Shown here piece after piece: positions 28,450 to 38,878 of a DNA stretch of 64,000 bases (the stretch's first letter is position 1; every line of letters starts with the position of its first letter). The notes beneath the pieces are model-generated. The model searched no databases. It was not told where the DNA came from and saw nothing but the letters and a program-made list of their open reading frames with translations. The stretch is from Streptomyces humicola (GTDB taxonomy: Bacteria; Actinomycetota; Actinomycetes; Streptomycetales; Streptomycetaceae). A program made the position numbers and the translations under genes. The stretch spans positions 62,001 to 126,000 of the forward strand of contig NZ_JANFNG010000015.1 in assembly GCF_024436035.1 (NCBI RefSeq), in the 5' to 3' direction.

Positions 28450-28483
28450 GGCGGAGGCCGGGGCTGTGGCCCCGGCCTCCGCC
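28450..28483 (-). terminator. Terminator beyond left tRNA-Val
   Basis: A perfect 14-bp stem GGCGGAGGCCGGGG / CCCCGGCCTCCGCC with a 6-nt loop, 8 bp past the 3' end of the left tRNA-Val copy (minus strand). Confidence 0.8.
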
Positions 28484-28489
28484 GTGCGG

Positions 28490-28563
28490 TGTGGACGATA
28501 CTGGGATTGAACCAGTGACCTCTTCCGTGTCAGGGAAGCGCTCTCCCGCTGAGCTAATCGTCC
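28490..28563. repeat. Left 74-bp direct repeat (attachment site candidate)
   Basis: Identical base for base to 31781-31854. It contains the complete 72-nt tRNA-Val plus two bases beyond its 3' end, and similarity stops abruptly at both edges. Read as one att site of the element at 28.5-31.9 kb. Confidence 0.8.
28492..28563 (-). tRNA. tRNA-Val (anticodon GAC), left copy
   Basis: A 72-nt cloverleaf on the minus strand: acceptor GGACGAT/ATCGTCC, D-arm GCTCAGCGGGAGAGC, anticodon arm CTTCC-CTGACAC-GGAAG giving anticodon GAC, and T-arm with GGTTCAATCC. CCA is not encoded. It is sequence-identical to the copy at 31783. A TTGGCG-N19-TACTGT promoter-like pair (28587-28617, minus) lies upstream, so it may be expressed separately. 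Confidence 0.95.
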
Positions 28564-28670
28564 TCGTCGCCCTGGCGACGTGGAAGACAGTAGCGCATCC
28601 GCCGCCACCTGCGCCAATTCGGCTCCGGGGTCCGGGTCCGTCCGTCGTCGTCCGTGAGCGTCTGCCTCGG

Positions 28671-28703
28671 GTGGCTCCCTGAGTGGCTCCCCCGGTGGCT
28701 CCC
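28671..28703. repeat. Three GTGGCTCCC direct repeats, candidate integrase arm sites
   Basis: GTGGCTCCC begins at 28671, 28683 and 28695, exactly 12 bp apart, about 110 bp inside the left att copy. The same word recurs inside the right end at 31711. Confidence 0.6.
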
Positions 28704-28719
28704 TGGCCTACGCGAGGAA

Positions 28720-28750
28720 GGCTCCTCCGCTCGATCGAGACGGAGGAGCC
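28720..28750 (-). terminator. Terminator of the STAS gene
   Basis: A 10-bp stem GGCTCCTCCG / CGGAGGAGCC with an 11-nt loop that contains TCGATCGA, 12 bp past the STAS stop. Confidence 0.65.
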
Positions 28751-28762
28751 CGATCAAGGAAG

Positions 28763-29152
28763 CTACCCTCCTGGTGCGATTGCTTCAGCCAGCGTGTTGT
28801 GGACCGACGGAGTGAGGCCATGGGTACCGCCCATGATCCGGAAGAGCCGTTCCACGCGGCCCGGGGAGACCACGAAGCGAACCGTGTGCCCTTTCTGCTG
28901 TGCCTTGCGGTGGACCGCATTGAGCATGCCCAACCCGTAGGCGTCGCAAAAGCTGACATCGGTCAGGTCCACGATGACCTGGGTCGGCTTGCCGTGGTCG
29001 GCCAGGAGATCGTTGACGTATCCGCGGAGCTGTGAGGCTGTGGCCAGGTCGATTTGGCCTGCCACGATAGCGACCGTCCAGCCGTCGACGCGGCTCGACG
29101 ACAGGTCCAGGTGTGCCGCTACTCCCTTCCCATTCGTTGATTGGCCGGCCAT
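28763..29152 (-). CDS. STAS-domain protein, anti-sigma-factor antagonist type
   Basis: A 129-residue single STAS domain (about residues 12-125) of the SpoIIAA/BldG type: VDGWTVAIVAGQIDLATASQ, then VIVDLTDVSFCDAYGLGML, then the C-terminal helices. In classical antagonists the loop reads D-S-S/T-G-L-G, and the serine is phosphorylated by the anti-sigma kinase to switch the protein off. Here it reads D-A-Y-G-L-G, so the phosphosite is missing. The protein could be permanently active or work by binding alone. No kinase or sigma gene is adjacent. ATG 29152 has GGAG at 7-nt spacing. It lies inside the tRNA-bounded element. Confidence 0.88.
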   Translation of the reverse strand: MAGQSTNGKGVAAHLDLSSSRVDGWTVAIVAGQIDLATASQLRGYVNDLLADHGKPTQVIVDLTDVSFCDAYGLGMLNAVHRKAQQKGHTVRFVVSPGRVERLFRIMGGTHGLTPSVHNTLAEAIAPGG

Positions 29153-29345
29153 AGGTATCTCCGCTGGTGGTCATTGCCCCCCTCACTTTGATCATCATTC
29201 CGCCGGGAGGATGCAGATAGAGTCGTCCGGCCTCTGGCGAATGCACCATTCGTCACGTAGCCGGGGGTGGTTGAGGCCCGACGGGCCCATGCCATTGAGA
29301 CCATCCATCTGGCCAGACACGCGGGCGGGTTCGGCACGTGCCCGA

Positions 29346-29419
29346 GAGGTCGGCGTAGCGGCTTTGGGCTGCCATGGGGCTAGAGATCATGGGGCCTCAC
29401 GCTGGTTCGCGAATCGGGC
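29346..29419. repeat. Imperfect direct repeat, copy A
   Basis: Resembles 30199-30276: both contain GAGGTCGG, AGCGGCTTTGGGCT, GCCATGGGGC and AGAGATC in order. Copy A lacks a 6-bp GGAGCT present in copy B. It lies 194 bp upstream of the STAS start. Confidence 0.7.
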
Positions 29420-29600
29420 TGGTGGCGCCTTGCCCATCGGCAGTAGCCCGTCTACTGATCAGCCGCCCGGCTGACCAGCGAGACAGAACAAGCCCACGAC
29501 TCTGACCAGTTCAGATGCCCGTCGGCTTCTGTCAACGTTGGCCGACCTCACACGGCCCAGAGAAGCCCCGGACTTGGCGTCCCGGCCGTCGCTGTGGGAC

Positions 29601-29628
29601 GAGGCCCCATCCGCACGGATGGGGCCTC
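29601..29628 (-). terminator. Terminator of the secreted-protein gene
   Basis: A perfect 13-bp stem GAGGCCCCATCCG / CGGATGGGGCCTC with a 2-nt loop, about 70 bp past the stop of the His-rich gene. Confidence 0.75.
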
Positions 29629-29700
29629 TGGACGGACGCGTGATCCGGCTCGACGGCACGCGGCAGGAGCTGATGGATGGCCCACCTGTTCGCTTCGTGA

Positions 29701-30048
29701 TCAGTGCTCGTCGCGACGGTGTTGGCGATGGTTGTCGCGACGGTGTTGGCGATGGTGGTGGCCGTTGATCTCGATCTTGTTGATGGTCTTGATCGTGATG
29801 ATGAATACCTCGCACCGACGATGACGTTGCTTGTGTTCCTTCTGCGGCTTGCGCTCCTTCTTCGAAACGCCGATACCGTTTTCCTTGTGCTCAGGGTGCA
29901 CCTTGACGCACTTGACCACGCGCGTGGCTTTCGGGTGCTTGTCGTGGTGCCTTGCCGGGGAGTGGCCGGCGGCGAGTGCCGTCGGGGTGCTGAGGGCGAG
30001 AACCGCTACGCCGCTGAGGGCTGTGGTCGCTATTCGTGTGAGGCGCAT
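29701..30048 (-). CDS. Small secreted His/Arg-rich protein, unknown function
   Basis: A 115-residue protein. It starts with a Sec signal peptide (MRLTRIATTALSGVAVLALS, cleavage likely after ALAA near residue 28). The mature part is very basic, with two cysteines (KCVKVH, RRCEVF) that could form a disulfide. The C-terminus has a repeated HRQHRRD unit, from a 24-bp tandem duplication at about 29710-29757, giving a His-rich tail that may bind metal. GGAGG lies 7 nt before ATG 30048. I know of no family. Its lower GC and location suggest it is cargo of the tRNA-bounded element. Confidence 0.6.
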   Translation of the reverse strand: MRLTRIATTALSGVAVLALSTPTALAAGHSPARHHDKHPKATRVVKCVKVHPEHKENGIGVSKKERKPQKEHKQRHRRCEVFIITIKTINKIEINGHHHRQHRRDNHRQHRRDEH

Positions 30049-30580
30049 GGGAGAACCTCCGCCTTCTGAGCGCAGCGCCGGGCCTTTACGCGCCGAAGTC
30101 AATTAACTGCGCTCTGTGCGTGACCGACGCTAGGTAACCCCCATCGCCCCTGCCATCCAGATAATCCATTAGAGGTACTACGCGCGCAGCCATGGACTGA
30201 GGTCGGTGGAGCGGCTTTGGGCTGGAGCTGCCATGGGGCGAGAGATCGGGGCCCGTAAGCTGTTGGCGACTCGGGCGGTCTGTGGACCTGCCCGCTAAGG
30301 CCCGATGTGGGCCCCGATCTTCGAGGCTCGCCTCAGTGTGAGCCTGGTTGTGGCCTGGTCGTCTTGATAGGCGCAGGGTCGGTCGTAGTCGGTGGGTGGC
30401 TCGGAGGCTCGCTGCTCTGCTGAGGGGCTTGCTTGGGATTTGTCCCCGCCGGCTGCGGCTCGGGCTGACCGGATGTGGCTTGATAGGAGAGTGGCAGCAG
30501 CCTTGCCCGGCGGAGCCGGGGCCGGAGCGGGGCGAAGGCAGGAGCGTCGGCCCCGGCGGTGAGCCGGGGCGCGTGCCGCC
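30049..30580. other. 532-bp gap before the integrase
   Basis: Contains the upstream region of the secreted-protein gene, copy B of the diverged repeat (30199-30276) and GC-rich sequence ahead of the integrase. An excisionase gene would be expected here in a typical actinomycete element; none is apparent. Short plus-strand frames (for example 30348-30584) have no recognisable protein. Confidence 0.55.
30199..30276. repeat. Imperfect direct repeat, copy B
   Basis: Partner of 29346-29419 and in the same orientation, 151 bp upstream of the secreted-protein start. The similarity extends over about 75 bp, including a distal GCGAnTCGGGC end. Confidence 0.7.
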
Positions 30581-31699
30581 TTGATCTACTGGGACGAGTC
30601 GAAACAGCGCTGGGTCGGGGCGATTTCGCTCGGTTACACGCCGTCAGGACGACGTCGCCGTCCCAAGGTCTATGGCAAGACCAAGACCGAGGTGCGCGGC
30701 AAGCTTCGTGAGCTGCGGAAGGAGTTGGAGGTTGGCGACCGTACGCCAGCGAACTACGCCGTGGCGGACGCCGTGAACGACTGGCTGGCTAGGGGGCTCA
30801 AGGGCCGTGACCCGGCGACCGTGAGCAAGAACCGCATCCTGGCCGAGAAACATGTCTTGCCCCTGCTGGGCCGTGCGAAGTTGCGGGAGCTGACCGCCGA
30901 CGATGTGGACGACTGGTTGGATGATCGTGCTGAGGTGCTGGCCACGTCGTCGCTCCGTGTTGTGCTGTCGATCTTGCGGCGGTCGATCGATCACGCGATG
31001 CGGCGGGACAAGGTACGGCGCAACGTCACGTTGCTTGTCGAGGTGCCCGAAGGACAGGCCGGACGGCCGAGCAAGTCACTGACCTTGGACCAAGCCCGAG
31101 CGGTGCTGGCTGCGGCGCGGTGGTCTCGGCTCTATGCGTACGTGGTGCTCTCGTTGCTGGTTGGCGTGCGGACCGAGGAGGCACGGTCGATGACCTGGAA
31201 GCACGTTCACTTGCGCCCGGCTGGCGACGTGCCCCCGCATGCGGAGGTCTGGCGTTCGGTGCGGCGGCATGGGGACACCAAGACCCGCAAGAGCCGTCGG
31301 ACGCTCAAGCTGCCCGCGCTGGTTGTCGCAGCCCTGGTAGAGCATCGCTACCGACAGCAAGATGAACGGATCGCCTACGGGCTGCTGTGGGACGCCTCCG
31401 ACTTGGTGTTCGCCACGACCACCGGTCAGGTGCTCGATGCTGCCAACGTGCGCCGGGCGTTTCGTTCGATCGTCAAGGCGGCGGGGTTGGCGCCGGAGTG
31501 GACGCCTCGGGAGTTGCGGCACAGCTTCGTGTCGCTGATGTCCGATCACGGCATCCCGGTGGAGAAGATCGCCCGCGTGGTCGGCCACGGCAGCACGACC
31601 ACGACGGAGGTCGTCTACCGGAAGCAGATCCGACCGGTGATCACCGAGGGGGCCGACACCATGGATGTGATCTTCGGCGAGCCGGCTCACGAGGCTTGA
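30581..31699 (+). CDS. int: Tyrosine recombinase (phage-type integrase)
   Basis: A 372-residue site-specific recombinase. An AP2-like arm-binding start (YWDESKQRWVGAISLGYTPS) is followed by a SAM-like core-binding domain (VADAVNDWLARGLKGRDPAT) and the catalytic domain. Catalytic residues: Arg197 (GVRTEEA), Arg313 (ELRHSF), His336 (VVGHGST) and Tyr346 (VVYRKQ). The box II position that is usually His is Arg310. The only possible in-frame start is TTG 30581, because TGA lies at 30560; related integrases begin 10-15 residues earlier with a basic stretch, and RRQERRPRR is encoded in the same frame just before that TGA. The N-terminus may thus be damaged or misread. It should act on the tRNA-Val att sites. 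Confidence 0.9.
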   Translation: MIYWDESKQRWVGAISLGYTPSGRRRRPKVYGKTKTEVRGKLRELRKELEVGDRTPANYAVADAVNDWLARGLKGRDPATVSKNRILAEKHVLPLLGRAKLRELTADDVDDWLDDRAEVLATSSLRVVLSILRRSIDHAMRRDKVRRNVTLLVEVPEGQAGRPSKSLTLDQARAVLAAARWSRLYAYVVLSLLVGVRTEEARSMTWKHVHLRPAGDVPPHAEVWRSVRRHGDTKTRKSRRTLKLPALVVAALVEHRYRQQDERIAYGLLWDASDLVFATTTGQVLDAANVRRAFRSIVKAAGLAPEWTPRELRHSFVSLMSDHGIPVEKIARVVGHGSTTTTEVVYRKQIRPVITEGADTMDVIFGEPAHEA

Positions 31700-31710
31700 T
31701 CAATCCGCCG

Positions 31711-31732
31711 GTGGCTCCCCGGTTTGGCTCCC
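31711..31732. repeat. GTGGCTCCC repeat pair near right end
   Basis: GTGGCTCCC at 31711 and the variant TTGGCTCCC at 31724, directly after the integrase stop and about 50 bp inside the right tRNA copy. They match the left-end triplet at 28671-28703 in sequence and orientation. Confidence 0.6.
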
Positions 31733-31742
31733 CGCACACCAC

Positions 31743-31775
31743 AAGGGCCTGATCCAACGAGTGGATCAGGCCCTT
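31743..31775. terminator. Terminator between integrase and right tRNA-Val
   Basis: A perfect 14-bp stem AAGGGCCTGATCCA / TGGATCAGGCCCTT with an ACGAG loop. It can end the integrase transcript (plus) and the tRNA operon (minus). Confidence 0.8.
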
Positions 31776-31780
31776 GACCT

Positions 31781-31854
31781 TGTGGACGATACTGGGATTG
31801 AACCAGTGACCTCTTCCGTGTCAGGGAAGCGCTCTCCCGCTGAGCTAATCGTCC
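31781..31854. repeat. Right 74-bp direct repeat (attachment site candidate)
   Basis: Identical to 28490-28563. This copy belongs to the tRNA-Gly-Cys-Val operon and is probably the original chromosomal tRNA gene. Confidence 0.8.
31783..31854 (-). tRNA. tRNA-Val (anticodon GAC), right copy
   Basis: The same 72-nt cloverleaf as the left copy, anticodon GAC. It is the last gene of a minus-strand tRNA operon (Gly, Cys, Val), one base from tRNA-Cys. It probably regained an intact 3' end when the element inserted. Confidence 0.96.
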
Positions 31855-31855
31855 G

Positions 31856-31926
31856 AGGTGGAGACGGGATTTGAACCCGTGTAGACGGCTTTGCAGGCCG
31901 TTGCCTCGCCTCTCGGCCACTCCACC
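31856..31926 (-). tRNA. tRNA-Cys (anticodon GCA)
   Basis: A 71-nt cloverleaf: acceptor GGTGGAG/CTCCACC, anticodon arm around CTGCAAA giving GCA, and T-arm GGTTCAAATCC. Middle gene of the Gly-Cys-Val operon. Confidence 0.96.
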
Positions 31927-31952
31927 AGTGTGGGGGCCAACGACCCCCATCG

Positions 31953-32025
31953 AGCGGACGACGGGATTCGAACCCGCGACCCTCACCTTGGCAAGGTGAT
32001 GCTCTACCAACTGAGCCACGTCCGC
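31953..32025 (-). tRNA. tRNA-Gly (anticodon GCC)
   Basis: A 73-nt cloverleaf: acceptor GCGGACG/CGTCCGC, anticodon loop TTGCCAA giving GCC, T-arm GGTTCGAATCC. First gene of the operon, about 45 nt downstream of the promoter. Confidence 0.96.
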
Positions 32026-38067: not shown

Positions 38068-38139
38068 GGGCGATTAGCTCAGCGGGAGAGCGCTTCGTTC
38101 ACACCGAAGAGGTCACTGGTTCGATCCCAGTATCGCCCA
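38068..38139 (+). tRNA. tRNA-Val (anticodon CAC), first copy
   Basis: A 72-nt cloverleaf: acceptor GGGCGAT/ATCGCCC, anticodon arm CTTCG-TTCACAC-CGAAG giving CAC, T-arm GGTTCGATCC. A T-tailed terminator follows. It differs from the copy at 38775 by a few bases in the D- and T-arms. Confidence 0.96.
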
Positions 38140-38151
38140 CCCGGAACCCGG

Positions 38152-38774: not shown

Positions 38775-38846
38775 GGGCGATTAGCTCAGTGGAAGAGCGC
38801 TTCGTTCACACCGAAGAGGTCACTGGTTCGAACCCAGTATCGCCCA
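38775..38846 (+). tRNA. tRNA-Val (anticodon CAC), second copy
   Basis: A 72-nt cloverleaf, anticodon CAC, T-arm GGTTCGAACC. Near-duplicate of 38068-38139 with changes in the D-arm (CGGGAG to TGGAAG) and the T-loop. Convergent with the exonuclease gene. Confidence 0.96.
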
Positions 38847-38878
38847 CACCGAATTCACCCGTGCGGCCGTCACCTTGC

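Follow-up and report, generated by a model that had tools for sequence, protein, structure and literature searches.

A probable decayed pSAM2-type element within the tRNA-Gly-Cys-Val array of Streptomyces humicola

RESULTS

Insertion into a Tandem tRNA-Val Array

The 64,000-nucleotide stretch of Streptomyces humicola DNA analyzed here (the window; its locus lies on contig C6 of G000, a 7.07-Mb streptomycete genome) contains a 3.2-kb integrase-driven insertion at the Gly-Cys-Val tRNA array, which is very probably a decayed actinomycete integrative and conjugative element (AICE) of the pSAM2 type. Two identical 74-bp stretches (28490-28563 and 31781-31854), each a complete tRNA-Val(GAC) gene on the minus strand, flank a 3,217-bp segment with a GC content of 65.5%, compared with 73.6 and 72.1% in the neighboring 5 kb, and a value as low was found in just 3 of 304 element-sized windows. 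A gene for a tyrosine integrase (30581-31699, plus strand, 372 amino acids from a TTG) ends 82 bp from one of the tRNA-Val copies, and the segment also carries genes for a STAS protein of the anti-sigma-factor-antagonist superfamily (28763-29152, minus strand) and a secreted His/Arg/Lys-rich protein (29704-30048, minus strand). No open reading frame between the two copies matches Rep, Tra, or Xis, and the RepSA copies of this genome are all on contigs other than C6. An earlier note had described the locus in these terms, and both its account of the perfect tRNA-Val copies, integrase, and low GC and its account of a STAS and a His-rich secreted protein lacking replication, transfer, and excision genes were confirmed.

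The host tRNA operon begins with tRNA-Gly(GCC) (31952-32025, minus strand), which has a native promoter-like sequence, TTGAGC-16-TAGAGT, upstream, and continues with tRNA-Cys(GCA) (31855-31926, minus strand). The proximal tRNA-Val (31782-31854, minus strand) follows tRNA-Cys without a spacer, in the position of Val1, and forms the integrase-side attachment site. At the other end, the downstream flank of the distal tRNA-Val (28491-28563, minus strand) is the native flank of Val3 and leads into the native terminator of the operon (28450-28483, minus strand). In element-free relatives (L008-L022) the array reads Gly-Cys-Val1-Val2-Val3-terminator, with Val1 and Val3 identical in nearly all of the arrays shown (acceptor stem GGACGAT/ATCGTCC) and Val2 distinguished by the stem GCGCGAT/ATCGCGC. 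The one further genome of the genus included in the comparison (L037) is also free of the element and has all three Val genes. Three are likewise present at 24 of the 30 loci of genus g7, some lineages of which have the GCGCGAT type throughout. Val-Val spacers in element-free relatives reach at most ∼130 bp. Compared with the native array, the window retains the Val beside Cys and the Val before the terminator, and the middle Val is absent. A third tRNA-Val may have been collapsed in the draft assembly; the two other assemblies with the element (L070 and L206) likewise show two Val genes.

Because Val1 and Val3 are natively identical, identical tRNAs would be expected to flank the segment even without duplication of an attachment site. 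The 74-bp repeats, taken earlier as diagnostic of such a duplication, thus reflect the native state; we rejected a definition of the att site by the 74-bp identity, and the exact crossover point is not readable from copies that are the same. Element-free arrays do occur in the genus and the family, with three Val genes rather than the single tRNA-Val that the earlier note had named as evidence of insertion. Host arrays are homogenized toward one or another acceptor-stem type (GGAC, GCGC, or GGGC), and the proximal and distal types differ among the window, L070, and L206.

Several further features of valine tRNA genes were observed. The acceptor stem of tRNA-Val(GAC) arrays shows concerted evolution: most follow a 1-2-1 pattern (GGAC/GCGC/GGAC), and some lineages have GCGC throughout or GGGC throughout (L169-L171, L025, L026, L029, and L028, versus L008-L022). 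One array (L183, on contig C16 of genome G120) includes a fourth tRNA-Val whose acceptor stem is mismatched, GGACGAT..ATCGCGC; it resembles a recombinant of the two types or may be an assembly artefact. The window also contains two tRNA-Val(CAC) genes on the plus strand (38068-38141 and 38775-38847, 633 bp apart), probably native, a similar pair being present in G001 of the same genus (C263:4518 and 4950).

Sister Elements at the Same Site

A scan of ∼85,000 genomes together with a search of 395 family genomes yielded one close relative of the integrase at this array, in Streptomyces sp. PH10-H1 (L070/L041; 86% identical). There, a 5.5-kb element between two tRNA-Val genes encodes Int, Xis (TIGR01764), RepSA (NF041486, 796 bits), a GntR protein, and a GNAT protein. 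A third element, in genus g4 (L206), is further decayed: the 1,458 bp between its two Val genes contain integrase fragments that are 85% identical. A search of the 395 genomes with the element's left end, taken from the window, gave three strong matches in total: the window element itself, L070, and L206.

These three elements, which belong to three different genera, have paired TGGCTCC(C) repeats at both ends, as expected of arm-type integrase sites. In the window, the integrase side has two copies of TGGCTCCC 13 bp apart (31705-31734, plus strand), and the distal side has three copies of GTGGCTCCC 12 bp apart (28666-28706, plus strand). All three also place a hairpin directly after the proximal tRNA; in the window it is a perfect, terminator-like 15-bp stem (31742-31776, not assigned to a strand), and the stem is kept in L070 and L206 despite base changes. 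Insertion at the Gly-Cys-Val array, as proposed in the earlier note, is thus supported both by the element-free arrays in genus and family and by the two related elements that occupy this site, each in another genus. The check suggested in that note, a search for the same integrase with the same cargo, found relatives of the integrase; the sister elements carry other genes.

An Integrase Lacking Its N Terminus

The integrase matches PF00589 (E value of 1.9e-18), and the LRH, GH, and Tyr motifs are conserved in an open integrase domain. In full-length relatives, the sequence IYWD is preceded by a start codon and ∼15 residues, the last of which in most cases read (N/H)G(E/A)D(S/T); this whole N-terminal portion is absent from the window integrase. 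A TTG directly precedes ATC TAC TGG and could serve as a start, with an in-frame TGA seven codons upstream (30560). As judged from the sequence, the integrase is probably inactive. In two of the three elements at this site, int is broken or truncated.

In a phylogenetic tree, the two integrases at Val(GAC) pair as sisters (100/100) inside a 47-row clade (95/97) located mostly at tRNA-Pro(CGG), within which the closer branching is not resolved. The best match among plasmids and phages was 55%, to a Nonomuraea record of 11.9 Mb, and phages reached about 30%. No second integrase of this type is present elsewhere in the genome, so that mobilization in trans by an element using the same att site, as had been suggested, is not supported.

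A Structured Repeat Abuts the Truncated Gene

The DNA that runs up to the integrase gene belongs to a dispersed structured repeat. Its 3′ part, R2 (30505-30579, plus strand), ends at the integrase junction, and its palindromic part, R1 (30199-30335, plus strand), lies upstream; a second copy of R1 (29343-29419, plus strand), partial and diverged, is found across the secreted-protein gene from the first. R1 is 96% identical to copies on contigs C10 and C76; R2 is 93-95% identical to the copies that lie near RepSA elements of those two contigs and to another on C55. A full copy of the repeat (L122:12240-12560) is ∼310 bp long, comprising the long palindrome R1 and R2, with a fold z-score of −5.9. 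Matches occur in 140 of 150 family genomes, many of them weak or partial. No Rfam family corresponds to it, a sub-threshold miRNA match being meaningless. The RepSA elements of this genome are on C10, C76, and C28, with tRNA-Ser or tRNA-Tyr on each contig stretch analyzed.

Each of the three full RepSA genes in this genome has a copy of the repeat 6-7 kb upstream on the same strand, and in the tRNA-Pro AICEs of relatives a copy lies 8-9 kb upstream of int, again on the same strand. In one of these (L158) the order is repeat, NUDIX, GntR, FtsK/SpoIIIE, DUF2637 (Spd), RepSA, Xis, Int, and tRNA-Pro. The repeat is not confined to AICEs: portions of it, chiefly R2, are scattered outside them too, and R2 also occurs by itself elsewhere. 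A role of the repeat as single-strand origin or transfer locus of AICEs is conceivable. In the window, repeat DNA continues to position 30579 and abuts int, so that the backbone is absent in its entirety; by analogy with these relatives, a single deletion of about 7-8 kb would account for its removal as one block.

The Cargo Genes

Phosphorylated anti-sigma antagonists carry a DSSG motif, at the position of which the STAS protein has FCDAYG, replacing the phosphorylatable Ser. The motif is missing from all eight STAS homologues that we aligned, three of them from elsewhere in this genome. FCDA, FCDV, or FCDP takes its place in the majority, and in three of the eight a Ser or Cys-Ser type residue stands next to the Gly (FCDASG in two and FCDCSG in one). 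The closest relatives (L160 and L164) also lack a serine at the phosphosite. The missing motif is thus common in the family of this protein, and the view that it is an unusual cargo is not supported by the alignment. After correction of its start, the secreted protein has 115 residues, 15 of them His, and its gene has a plausible signal peptide and a Shine-Dalgarno sequence. It has no Pfam or NCBIfam match, and beyond two marginal matches no homologue in 395 family genomes. The position of the gene between the partial repeat copies at 29343-29419 and 30199-30335 suggests capture or rearrangement through the repeats.

The earlier note had also envisaged the two genes as a small regulatory or fitness module, in which they would act jointly and maintain the element. 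Both are open and the STAS gene is intact, and the second gene has plausible secretion and translation signals; yet the genes are placed separately, 550 bp apart, the secreted protein is an orphan, and STAS homologues at 40-51% identity occur elsewhere in this genome and genus. Moreover, both genes went undetected in L070, and the 1,458 bp of L206 leave too little room for the two of them intact next to its integrase remnant. With sister elements carrying other genes, we regard joint action as quite unlikely and the cargo as unremarkable.

DISCUSSION

Probable Decay of an AICE

The arrangement is best explained as follows. The integrase would have recombined attP with a tRNA-Val(GAC) of a native Gly-Cys-Val-Val-Val array, and the middle tRNA-Val would have been lost later, most likely by recombination of identical tRNA copies. 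An internal deletion would then have taken the backbone (a KorSA-like regulator, Tra, Spd, RepSA, and Xis) along with the start of int, fusing the upstream structured repeat to about codon 16 of the gene and leaving the cargo, the att arms of both sides, and an integrase that is probably inactive. What points to decay by internal deletion is the 5′ truncation of int and the sharp boundary between int and an AICE repeat; the description of the element as minimal was not borne out. The absence of tra from L070 counts against this loss of a backbone, as the ancestor may already have been small; no complete ancestral element of the lineage was found in the scan of ∼85,000 genomes or among the 395 family genomes.

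Comparison with known systems places the element among the pSAM2-type AICEs at tRNA-Pro(CGG) (L158 and L090), with which it has in common the integrase clade, the location of int beside the tRNA 3′ end, the hairpin between int and att, and paired TGGCYCC arms on both sides. L158 differs in possessing the RepSA, Tra, and Xis backbone, of which the window has nothing. The far end of L090 is a 45-bp 3′ fragment of the tRNA, whereas that of the window is a whole tRNA; such a 45-bp fragment forms the far att in three of the tRNA-Pro relatives where it was found, and one of 57 bp in a fourth. L070 resembles the window in its array, arms, hairpin, promoter-like P′ end, and integrase but keeps Xis and RepSA, adds GntR and GNAT, and lacks the STAS and secreted proteins.

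Decayed AICEs that consist of a partial integrase, cargo, and direct repeats have been published (PMC9513070), and AICE remnants are also named in PMC3218068. In those of the former paper (2022, Figure 4 C-E), as in the window, direct repeats at an established AICE site enclose cargo and a truncated integrase, although the site there is a glycosyltransferase gene and in the window a tandem tRNA array in which identical native genes imitate such repeats. On the side of decay, the window has a partial integrase, and other strains show the site empty (L037 and L008-L022) or occupied by an element that is more complete (L070, which keeps int, xis, and rep). The border repeats in the window are 74 bp long, though the native tRNA copies are identical anyway; the arms speak for true element ends. 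Of the components of a functional AICE, the window has an AICE-family integrase gene beside the tRNA 3′ end, and the RepSA-type initiator, the FtsK/SpoIIIE-like Tra, and Xis are all absent from it, Xis being present in L070. In the strict sense a DAICE retains traB (PMC9513070), and the window, having none, falls outside that definition.

Two other origins for the segment were weighed. It might be a minimal but live integrative element, with the integrase working from the TTG and Xis supplied by a resident AICE to drive excision. The open integrase domain with its conserved motifs, the intact arms on both sides, and the three RepSA elements resident in the genome would suit this proposal, but the loss of the integrase N terminus, the lack of any other integrase of this type in the genome, and the damage to int in two of the three same-site elements make it unlikely. 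Alternatively, there may have been no insertion at all, the segment being an ancestral spacing of tandem tRNA-Val genes into which an integrase fragment drifted. That Val1 and Val3 are natively identical and that spacers vary (117 bp, for example, in the same genus) lend this idea its appeal; however, element-free spacers of at most about 130 bp, the low GC, and the arms, hairpin, and integrase that form one unit common to three genera speak against it, and the sister elements at the same site contradict it, so that we consider it extremely improbable. Decay of a pSAM2-type AICE remains our preferred explanation.

A Possible Promoter for the Severed tRNA

Insertion in the middle of a tRNA operon cuts the downstream tRNAs off from the promoter before tRNA-Gly. 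In the window element, L070, and L206 the distal tRNA is complete, and in all three the motif TTGGC(G/C)-19-TA(A/C)TGT is found ∼13-24 nt upstream of it, in element-conserved DNA. The window version, TTGGCG-19-TACTGT (28587-28617, minus strand), is 23 nt upstream of the tRNA. The motif resembles the promoters of operon-leading tRNAs in this family. A generic sigma-70 scan gave no strict match, and the case for a promoter is therefore made with a looser tRNA-promoter pattern and its controls: 83 of 121 leading tRNAs score, versus 2 of 145 native internal Val spacers, against a background of 0.4-0.9% of positions. As the three elements are related, their motifs do not count as three independent observations.

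We tentatively suggest, from these sequence comparisons, that the distal tRNA receives its promoter from the element; the hairpin behind Val1 could stop read-through. Elements of the Val(GAC) lineage would then perhaps insulate the operon that they split, with a hairpin by the upstream tRNA and a complete, promoter-bearing tRNA-Val at the far end, and the tRNA severed from the operon promoter might, if our somewhat doubtful reading is right, stay expressed. It is also conceivable, at a confidence short of even, that promoter and tRNA outlast the decay of the integrase, the remnant being held in place as part of a host tRNA gene. The apparent end of one tRNA transcript and the restart of the next from the element's own promoter seems to be the only unusual feature of the locus.

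The locus documents the decay of an AICE to a cargo stub inside a tRNA array, and it corrects a common inference, in that identical tRNAs flanking an integrase need not represent an att duplication where the host array is tandem. Ordinary restoration of a tRNA 3′ end leaves the silencing of downstream genes unsolved; if the promoter reading is true, an element of this kind can insert midway along a polycistronic tRNA operon while the genes beyond it escape silencing.
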